64,000 bases of DNA from positions 18,885,098 to 18,949,097 of the forward strand of contig NC_135560.1 in NCBI RefSeq assembly GCF_964340395.1, read 5' to 3'. Below, piece by piece: positions 26,501-27,335 of the stretch. How positions within the stretch are numbered: position 1 is the stretch's first letter; each line of letters begins with the position of its first letter. The notes under the pieces are model-generated. The model did no database searches. It saw nothing but the letters and a program-made list of their open reading frames with translations, and had not been told where the DNA came from. This DNA is from Glandiceps talaboti (taxonomy: Eukaryota > Hemichordata > Enteropneusta > Spengelidae). The translations under genes and the position numbers were made by a program.

Positions 26501-27335
26501 TATACATTGCAGGTAATTTAATTACAGTATATTGTGTGCTATGATTTCACCAGCCCTGGCACAGGTCTGACAGGTACAGTGATTGCCATAGATATTTGTA
26601 TTTAAAATGAAAACTAGTACTAATATTTGCTGTTGATTTCACCAGCCCTGGCACAGGTCGGACAGGTACAGTGGTTCCCATAGATATTTGTATTTAAAAT
26701 GAAAACTAGTACTAATATTTGTTGTTGATTTCACCAGCCCTGGCACAGGTCGGACAGATACAGTGGTTGCCATAGATATTTGTATTTAAAATGAAAACTA
26801 GTACTAATATTTGCTGTTGATTTCACCAGCCCTGGCACAGGTCGGACAGGTACAGTGATTGCCATAGATATTGGTATGAGGTCTTTAGAAGACAACAAAG
26901 CTGTGGATGTTCCCAATACAGTCAGTTGTATCAGACAAGACAGAGCTGGTGCTGTGCAGACCAAAGAACAGTATAACTTTATCTATCAGGTAGGTTTATA
27001 GTCATCAATGTTAAACTAGACAAGCAAACAAACAAACAATCATCTATATCTTCATCTTTCAACAGTGAACAACTACTTTCACTGACTTGTAAAGTATATT
27101 TAGTGTCACCAAATTTTATAATCATGGAAGTTCAAAAGTTAATTACATTCCTGATATTGTTTTGATACAAAAGCAAATAATGACAGAAGTTAACTTGTCT
27201 TTATAGGCACTACAGTATTATGCCACCAGATTAGTCCAACAACTACAACAAATGCATCATGACTTCTTTATCACCGATGTGGATGAACTTGATGACTGGG
27301 CAAGCTTTACATCTGAAGAGAGAGGTCCAATATGA
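11571..27335 (+). CDS. Receptor-type protein tyrosine phosphatase, mucin-like ectodomain, R7-like PTP domain
   Basis: Eleven GT-AG exons in phase: 11571-11652, 17112-19594, 20762-20911, 21410-21634, 23627-23707, 24343-24501, 24961-25098, 25553-25693, 26364-26512, 26830-26989, 27207-27335; 1298 aa. Residues 1 to ~27 are a signal peptide. A Ser/Thr/Pro-rich stalk to ~740 contains a duplicated [11 protein letters not shown] block. Residues ~750-865 may be SEA-like. TM ~881-903 is followed by an RRRRRR stop-transfer, then one PTP domain (~1015-1285): [41 protein letters not shown] (Cys1202, Arg1208) and [10 protein letters not shown] are conserved. Spacing and wording resemble PTPRR/PTPN5/PTPN7. 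The WPD-loop acid is His (WPH, residue 1170), and P-loop SPGTG replaces SAGxG, so catalysis may be weak or absent. No clear kinase-interaction motif is seen. The start was chosen because its signal peptide splices in frame onto the stalk exon. Confidence 0.88.
12600..12780. repeat. Dispersed foldback (MITE-like) element, copy A
   Basis: The left part GGGGTATTTGCACTAGTACTTGCAGT pairs imperfectly with ACTGCAAGCACTCTGCCAATACCCC on the right. The right half (GCACTTTCAC...ACTGCAGAGA..ACTGCAA...AATACCCC.AGTA...GTTCTGTT) recurs at about 36305-36420 in a GLMP intron, so the element is dispersed and non-coding. Confidence 0.65.
12964..12983. repeat. Poly-C tract, 20 bases
   Basis: Homopolymer of 20 C. 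The length in the true genome is uncertain because such runs are error-prone. Confidence 0.95.
13200..14300. repeat. Diverged tandem/interspersed repeat, units about 370-480 bp
   Basis: Recurring blocks appear in the same order: AAGGTCAAAGGTCAAGGTC, CTGATAATATGGGGTAGA, TTTTTGAGTTAT.CAGTAAAT, TGATTTTTAACTACAAATATGGCTGCCATTC. The TGGCTGCCATT block is at about 13798 and 14165, with a diverged copy near 13318. The last copy ends GATATGATGCATTACGGATGGACAGAACCC, a style of ending common in invertebrate short interspersed repeats. Confidence 0.75.
14311..14322. repeat. Poly-G tract, 12 bases
   Basis: Homopolymer run directly after the last unit of the 13-14 kb repeat. Confidence 0.9.
15070..15850. 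repeat. Tandem array, period about 112-121 bp, interrupted by a solo LTR
   Basis: AATCTGAGGCTAATCACCATT occurs at 15092, 15204, 15319 and 15440 (a slightly different end in the last). Each is followed by a TCCAAGTATTCAAAGTTAAAGATACTCACC and AAAGAGAATATTCAG-type segment. The fifth partial unit is split: it stops at CCAAAGT (15489) and resumes at AAAGTTAAAGGTACTCACCTGG (15792). In units 2-4 these two halves are contiguous. Confidence 0.88.
15490..15791 (+). mobile_element. Solo LTR (302 bp) with 5-bp target-site duplication AAAGT
   Basis: The insert begins TGTCGTGAAT and ends GTCATCCACA, so it has the TG...CA ends typical of retroviral-type LTRs. It is flanked on both sides by AAAGT (15485-15489 and 15792-15796). 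The flanking tandem repeat shows the uninterrupted empty site (CAAAGTTAAAG) in other units. A TATA-like TATAAA at 15692-15697 sits where an LTR promoter would lie. No internal gag/pol region is present, so this is a solo LTR left by recombination. Orientation is inferred from the TATA-like motif. Confidence 0.8.
17822..18057 (+). repeat. Internal coding repeat in the PTP stalk, period 177 bp
   Basis: ACCAGGACGGAAATTACTCC...CCAAGTATACA.GTACCTGATAA.TC.GCAAAGG occurs at 17822 and again at 17999. The distance (177 bp) keeps the frame, giving two copies of [19 protein letters not shown]. This is a recent duplication of 59 codons in the mucin-like region. Confidence 0.9.
19595..20761 (+). other. 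PTP intron 2
   Basis: Starts GGTAATAATG after AACCA and ends in a long T-run plus CAG. A possible SINE remnant lies at 19784-19920. Nothing else is recognised. Confidence 0.8.
19784..19920 (+). repeat. SINE-like element
   Basis: A short element ending GAGGTCTTGTTACAGCACTATATAAATAATGATGATG, an ending of the GCACTATATAAAT-plus-trinucleotide type common to tRNA-derived SINEs. It shares its end with sequence at about 6835-6857. Confidence 0.5.
21635..23626 (+). other. PTP intron 4
   Basis: Donor GTGGGATAG, acceptor TTCTTGTGTAG. It contains a partial copy of the exon 4 edge at about 21727-21779 and otherwise no recognised feature. Confidence 0.75.
21727..21779 (+). repeat. Partial duplication of PTP exon 4 3' edge and donor region
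   Basis: AGCTAGACGAACCACCATCACCATAGGATAGTAGGGTTTGTAGAAAAAA closely repeats 21610-21660 (AGTTAGATGAAGCACCATCACCACAGGTGGGATAGTAGGGTTTGTAGAAAAAA), about 118 bases downstream. The copy has lost the CAG-GTGGG donor, so it cannot serve as an exon end. Confidence 0.8.
23708..24342 (+). repeat. PTP intron 5 with diverged repeats, period about 128 bp
   Basis: Related blocks recur: AAGTAAAACATGTT (about 23832 and 23992; diverged AAGTAAACCATTTT at 24122) and A.GACTA.ATG.T.TATAT.T (23778, 24062, 24188). Long A- and T-runs lie at 23845-23900. Intronic, non-coding. Confidence 0.6.
25099..25552 (+). other. PTP intron 7
   Basis: Donor GTAAAATAAA, acceptor CTTGTTCCAG. No feature recognised. An antisense open frame overlapping the left part has no homology signal. 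Confidence 0.7.
25733..26290. repeat. (ACTGT/ACTGC)n pentamer-derived satellite in PTP intron 8
   Basis: About 560 bases built from ACTGT, ACTGC and ATTGC pentamers. A higher-order unit is visible: GAACCACACTGCACTGTGCGGGACTGCATTGCACTGTACTG appears repeatedly at spacings of roughly 70-130 bases. The array keeps long open frames on both strands simply because the pentamers contain few stops. It lies between exons 8 and 9 and is not coding. Confidence 0.95.
26545..26875 (+). repeat. Tandem 92-bp partial duplications of the PTP active-site exon edge
   Basis: The intron end plus first ~43 bases of exon 10 is present four times, with acceptors before 26554, 26646, 26738 and 26830 (exact 92-bp spacing). 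Every copy has TTTCACCAG followed by C-CCT-GGC-ACA-GGT. Only the fourth continues as exon 10 (GATATTGGTATGAGG). Copies 1-3 continue GATATTTGTATTTAA and stop in frame. Copy 1 has CTG for the P-loop Arg codon CGG; copy 3 has GAT for the following Gly codon GGT. Copy 2 keeps the loop intact. Confidence 0.95.

Follow-up and report, generated by a model that had tools for sequence, protein, structure and literature searches.

Four near-identical acceptor sites, each followed by the start of the exon that encodes the catalytic loop, stand at the end of one intron of a receptor-type tyrosine phosphatase gene. The locus raises the question of which of them is spliced, and of whether the surplus copies act on the expression of the gene or are simply tolerated. 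We analysed the window, a stretch of 64,000 nucleotides (C13:18885098-18949097) from an assembly of 590 Mb in 47 contigs, together with other loci of the same genome and published cases of duplicated splice junctions.

The gene and its phosphatase domain

The gene lies on the + strand and encodes a receptor-type tyrosine phosphatase (PTP), in which a long Ser/Thr-rich exon is followed by a membrane span (recognised by eye) and by the single phosphatase domain that we found (Y_phosphatase, PF00102, E = 6.5e-75). The top matches among solved structures are receptor PTPs, e.g., alpha, sigma, and LAR. We placed nine exons by hand using reading frames and GT-AG ends, a layout in which an exon may have been missed between C and D:

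17112-19594, +, exon A, hand-placed
20762-20911, +, exon B, hand-placed
21410-21634, +, exon C, hand-placed
24343-24501, +, exon D, hand-placed
24961-25098, +, exon E, hand-placed
25553-25693, +, exon F, hand-placed
26364-26512, +, exon G, ending in CATTGCAG/GTAATT, i.e., HC and two bases of the Ser codon; holds the WPHNTVP loop
26830-26989, +, exon H, attached to copy 4 of the array; 160 nt, open up to the next donor CAG/GTAGGT
27207-27335, +, exon I, last coding exon, hand-placed

Exons A to F (17112-25693, +) cover the Ser/Thr-rich part, the membrane span, and the start of the PTP domain. With copy 4, the gene has an HC-x5-R loop (HCSPGTGR). The Asp of the WPD loop is absent: the WPHNTVP of exon G (26364-26512) aligns to the WPDFGVP of PTP alpha domain 1, with His in place of the catalytic Asp. 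This replacement makes normal catalysis doubtful, and the protein may have little or no phosphatase activity. The window has other repeats, including an ACTGC-type repeat of about 500 bp that occupies most of the intron before exon G (25733-26282) and two long minisatellites at 31521-32824 (46 bp x 28.6) and 39987-40743 (45 bp x 16.9).

Tandem copies of an intron/exon boundary

The repeat unit spans the intron/exon boundary before exon H, so that each copy consists of the intron end and the first 44 nt of the exon encoding the phosphatase loop, and the units carry splice signals. TRF identified a 92-bp tandem unit in about 3.7 copies at 26542-26877 (95% matches), and a repeat finder gave spacings of 92 and 92 and two copies, both at 96% identity to the reference copy. 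Sequence reading agrees with both programs on four acceptors at 92-bp spacing, as originally predicted. The acceptors end at 26553, 26645, 26737, and 26829, and the donor CAG/GTAATT directly follows 26512; on re-reading, the predicted junction bases (26512, then 26554, 26646, 26738, or 26830) were correct. The elements of the array are the following:

26513-26553, +, stretch from the donor to the acceptor of copy 1; 41 nt, with just two YTNAY motifs, at -33 (some 9 nt past the donor) and at -5
26542-26597, +, copy 1: TGATTTCACCAG and exon head 26554-26597; Arg to Leu; the upstream ACTAAT half of the unit is missing
26598-26689, +, unit 2: GTATTT...ACTAAT...CACCAG (48 nt) and exon head 26646-26689; Ala to Pro, Ile to Val
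26690-26781, +, unit 3: layout as unit 2, exon head 26738-26781; Gly to Asp, Ile to Val
26782-26829, +, end of the intron preceding the true exon; contains ACTAAT (A at -23) and TTTCACCAG
26513-26829, +, working intron of 317 nt for splicing to copy 4

All four copies have TGATTTCACCAG followed by the 44-nt exon head, of which copy 4 deviates at the final base. Between copies lie 36 nt with a branch-point-like ACTAAT, running into the next TGATTTCACCAG. The intron-end signal TTTCACCAG is thus present in all four copies and ACTAAT in three. The copies differ among themselves at five aligned positions and at one filler position.

The 336-bp array matches the 590-Mb assembly at a single place. 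When up to three mismatches were allowed, a 34-nt piece taken from its intronic part gave three matches, all inside the array. We rejected three candidate origins. Chance is ruled out as the origin of the array by the repeat itself. A dispersed element as the source of the filler finds no other match in the genome at up to three mismatches. Finally, the filler could have been a separate copy of the intron, but when 29 nt of the 41-nt stretch were aligned with the 36-nt filler (both upstream of the shared 12 nt), the result was no better than chance: the global score was reached by 6.8% of 2,000 shuffles and the local score by 72%.

Only the last copy is predicted to give an intact protein

Reading on from copies 1 to 3 gives ...HCSPGTG, Leu or Arg, T, and Gly or Asp, and then ends in ATT TGT ATT TAA, the in-frame stop that had been predicted 17 residues past the Cys. 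The two substitutions singled out in the original prediction were recovered as well: Arg to Leu in copy 1 (CGG to CTG) and Gly to Asp in copy 3 (GGT to GAT). Ile to Val (ATT to GTT) occurs in both copies 2 and 3, and copy 2 carries Ala to Pro (GCC to CCC) as well. The last copy is the only one predicted to give an intact protein, because it is the only one continuous with the rest of the exon.

From the stops of copies 1, 2, and 3 it is 384, 292, and 200 nt to the end of exon H, and one further junction lies downstream. By the usual 50-55-nt rule, transcripts spliced to a decoy copy would be targets of decay. The suggestion that decoy use makes truncated, possibly dominant-negative or NMD-targeted transcripts is right on paper, but given the positions of the stops decay is more likely than a dominant-negative product.

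Copy 1 is unlikely to serve as an acceptor

The four copies had been described as having near-identical pyrimidine tracts. This holds for the last 12 nt but not upstream, where copy 1 lacks ACTAAT and would leave an intron of 41 nt. The seven other introns of the gene measure 217-2708 nt as placed, the longest possibly spanning a missed exon. In myosin, 28 gaps between neighbouring matches, which only approximate intron lengths, range between 268 and 3202 nt (median 630.5); they are the pairs that passed the filter among 76 of 78 rows, C6:964344-964907 and C6:963310-963720 being left out. Excerpts of a study of human introns state that those under 66 nt are scarcely known and that 12 of the 15 supported ones are G-rich (PMC4463651), which the 41-nt stretch is not. 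Since human introns of 37-65 nt exist (PMC4463651), an intron of 41 nt is not impossible.

Branch-point motifs separate copy 1 from the others. A YTNAY occurs between -14 and -26 in every one of the seven other introns but not in copy 1, and copies 2 to 4 have the same motif (CTAAT at -23) and the same tract content. The missing CTAAT says little by itself because four of the seven other introns also lack CTRAY: CTAAT precedes exons D, F, and G, but not B, C, E, and I. Taken together, the 41-nt intron and the lack of a well-placed branch-point motif suggest that copy 1 is probably dead. The contest would therefore be between copies 2, 3, and 4, whose use would give introns of 133, 225, and 317 nt.

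Exon definition would favour the exon-attached copy

Experiments on competing 3' splice sites, excerpted from PMC9225289, offer the closest guide to this contest. They resemble the array in having near-equal sequences before one exon and differ from it in that the duplicates here are 92 nt apart and only one of them has an open frame. With flanking introns longer than about 250 nt, the sites that lie nearest across the exon are reported to be favoured, and 3' sites of the LS class, which we read as a long upstream and a short downstream intron, to behave as under exon definition (PMC9225289). With flanks of 317 nt upstream and 217 nt downstream if copy 4 is used, exon H falls in the LS class. 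Copy 4 would thus be mainly used, because it gives a normal exon of 160 nt with the sites closest across it, whereas copy 1 lies near the donor without a well-placed branch point. The same excerpts describe an overall preference for upstream sites that is reduced, not reversed, under exon definition (PMC9225289), and one therefore expects some leak to copy 2. The downstream intron of 217 nt is also under the 250-nt line of that study, which speaks against the main use of copy 4. Given this intron, the upstream preference, and the equality of copies 2 to 4 in motif and tract, copy 2 could be used substantially.

We infer the following scenario, including the splice choice, the decay, and the neutrality of the array, and hold it to be probable. 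A minisatellite would have formed over the intron/exon boundary, and a branch point, pyrimidine tract, AG, and the first 44 nt of the exon would have been duplicated in tandem to four copies. Copy 1 would afterwards have lost its branch-point half or diverged at the edge of the array. The splicing machinery would mainly pick the exon-attached copy 4, helped by exon definition, and copies 2 and 3 would leak at a low level into early-stop transcripts that decay. The array would then be a tolerated, not a selected, feature.

The array has the sequence features of lancelet mirages

Arrays of this kind have been described in lancelets under the name of mirages: minisatellite-like duplications of intron/exon boundaries, found at 3' and 5' boundaries in the globin genes BflGb6 and BflGb9, with Adh3 cited as a further case (PMC3087553, in part). 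Adh, TnC, and PGBD5 are named in excerpts of a second study (PMC3902484). The array shares with them the tandem units over a 3' or 5' boundary, the splice signals in many units, and a unit length within the lancelet range (10-160 bp). It differs in lying in another gene and very probably another phylum (hemichordates), and in that its copy 1 lacks the branch-point half. By its sequence features, it is a mirage. BflGb6 has 6 and 3 units in two haplotypes (PMC3087553, in part), and by analogy the copy number may vary between haplotypes here. Adh3 data and RT-PCR suggest in the same excerpts that mirages leave regular splicing undisturbed, and PMC3902484 likewise reports undisturbed splicing in lancelet genes with boundary repeats.

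The lancelet authors held mirages to be possibly general in cephalochordates and proposed them as a source of new introns (PMC3087553, in part). Among the matches listed in open-licence papers, we found no report of mirages in hemichordates. A hemichordate case would widen them beyond cephalochordates, and this likely new phylum is the main interest of the array; for the phosphatase gene itself it is probably of little consequence. The choice among equal splice sites is usually studied with minigenes, and many natural junction duplicates in one genome would provide ready tests of exon versus intron definition, of leak into decay, and of the origin and shift of introns.

A related case is the potato RdRp gene, where excerpts of PMC4974935 describe an intron gained by tandem duplication across intron 1/exon 2. 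The duplication there also holds an intron end, a putative branch site, a tract, an AG, and an exon start. In potato, however, a cryptic exonic GTAAG became a donor and RNA-seq shows the new intron, whereas copies 1 to 3 here read into a stop.

Similar arrays lie over other splice junctions

We searched for similar arrays in loci of this genome that had been fetched for PTP and myosin exons and are thus a small and biased sample. TRF found 51 merged arrays (period 20-500) in 164,301 bases of 51 loci, i.e., 310 per Mb and 9.3% of the bases, a density that is slightly high because several loci overlap and at least one array was counted twice. This count leaves out the gene of the window (L005-L009 and L011), the mitochondrial loci, and L001, as well as L022, L025, and L064 for overlap.

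We then scanned the edges of matches for nearby copies: the 44-nt stretch with the edge at its centre had to recur within 500 nt at an identity of at least 78%. The scan covered 54 loci, only the six of the window's gene being dropped, and was positive at 5 of 108 match edges. For comparison, 157 of 1,620 positions in the flanks and 2 of 378 in the interior of matches were positive. Not every match edge is a true junction, and the flank positions depend on one another and may partly fall in other exons. Fisher tests, which treat positions as independent although they are not and exclude L053, gave p = 0.088 for edges versus flanks and p = 0.007 for edges versus interiors. Arrays thus seem to cross junctions at about half the frequency found in flanking DNA, and they seldom lie inside exon matches. 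Such a pattern is in keeping with blind formation of repeats and the loss of those that do harm.

Six further arrays lie over junctions in myosin and phosphatase genes of these 54 loci, five found by the scan and one by eye:

L030, L044, L058, L062: 5' splice sites, edge scan
L041: 3' splice site, edge scan
L053: 3' splice site, by eye, missed by the scan

In L030, a PTP paralogue on contig C7, four tandem GTAAGT donors stand at 0, 68, 132, and 194 nt at the end of the match. L041 has three acceptors 48 nt apart, and L062 two donors 58 nt apart with a third copy of the unit that lacks a donor. By hand reading, the first decoy leads to a stop in five of the six loci. The exception is L044 (myosin, 1269-1552), where a 5' splice site is duplicated 141 nt downstream and its use adds 47 residues in frame without a stop. 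As far as sampled, the array of the window is ordinary for this genome.

The genome also shows what looks like a large local family expansion, since 25 of the 49 exon matches to the PTP domain are on C7 (about 7.4-15.5 Mb). Pieces of a kinesin motor (profile 245-320) recur with near-equal scores about every 1.8-2 kb on C22 and C23; equal-scoring pieces are also on C2, C5, C12, C15, and C18, perhaps from a repeated or mobile kinesin-bearing family.

Alternative explanations

The original prediction left the choice between a regulatory switch and a harmless amplification open, and the evidence favours the latter, given that minisatellites are dense in the sampled part of the genome and also cross other junctions, and that lancelet arrays are reported to leave splicing undisturbed. 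A built-in switch, in which regulated use of the decoys sends transcripts to decay and lowers phosphatase output, seems unlikely. Copies 2 and 3 do match copy 4 in branch-point motif, tract, and AG, and every decoy stop is separated by at least 200 nt from the end of exon H, which another junction follows. Yet the decoys bear amino-acid changes at conserved positions of the loop, similar arrays that other genes have at 5' as well as 3' splice sites fit a mutational habit better than a gene-specific switch, and the published mirages are reported to splice normally (PMC3087553 and PMC3902484, both in part). An artefact of assembly or sequencing, with fewer copies in the animal, has only a slight chance of being correct. 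The assembly seems to hold at least one artificial tandem, as the mitochondrial contig C40 has the COX1 region three times at 15,435-base spacing, but it comprises only 47 contigs for its 590 Mb, and the copies differ at the five aligned positions and the filler position mentioned above.

The array could also reflect an intron in the course of relocation, a reading that we regard as very improbable. Exon G would be spliced to copy 2 (133-nt intron), leaving a 20-nt exon, and the CAG/GTACAG of copy 2 would then be spliced to CGGACAG/GT in copy 4. Because copies 2 and 4 agree in their first 20 nt, this two-step route yields an mRNA that we checked to be letter-for-letter the same as the direct copy-4 mRNA, with the frame kept. 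In copy 3, the Gly to Asp change also abolishes the internal CAG/GT at 20. A paralogue (L013/L065) has an intron exactly at this place (GRT/G), 20 nt downstream, and none at HC/S; in L010, the nearest paralogue, an AG stands at the HC/S place. Against this route, an exon of 20 nt is hard to recognise, the second acceptor has no pyrimidine tract and stands behind another AG, and the intron of the paralogue may be old and unrelated. The idea has a precedent in the proposal that mirages are a source of new intron positions (PMC3087553, in part). We take the two-step route and the place of the L013/L065 intron as a lead on intron shifting rather than a result. A broader extension is likewise unlikely: mirages would be pervasive outside lancelets, with a few per cent of junctions here in tandem duplicates, copies like copy 2 would be spliced in two steps with the mRNA unchanged, and the intron would move 20 nt unseen to the place used by the paralogue. 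We retain a tolerated mirage as the preferred explanation.

The mitochondrial contig

The contig C40 measures 51,222 bases and bears on the phylum of the animal. Its gene order is nad2, the tRNAs for Asn, Trp, Ala, and Tyr, then cox1, tRNA-Ser, cox2, and atp6, with the protein genes named by eye; the Trp tRNA was labelled SeC by ARAGORN (anticodon tca). Lancelets share this mitochondrial gene order. It fits hemichordates and vertebrates, according to excerpts of PMC2697986.

In the parts of C40 that we read, Lys is AAG in 12 of 12 codons, and AAA, AGA, and AGG are absent, even though the codon ending in A is the prevalent one for Glu, Gln, and Trp. Among the ATA codons scored, a part of the total, some are at positions where Ile is presumably usual and at least one where Met is. 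Between cox2 and atp6 lies a tRNA-Lys-like sequence with the anticodon loop CTCTTAA (L002, about 3868), where ARAGORN reported no tRNA. Balanoglossus has the same loop, lacks AAA and AGG, and reads ATA as Ile, whereas cephalochordates have the loop CUUUUAA and read AAA as Lys and ATA as Met (PMC3121625, in part). AGA encodes Ser in Balanoglossus, and its absence from the parts read carries little weight either way. The CUU anticodon also occurs in echinoderms, whose gene orders are different (PMC2697986, in part). Codon use and the anticodon of the tRNA-Lys point to an enteropneust (acorn worm) of Balanoglossus type as the best guess and make a lancelet unlikely.
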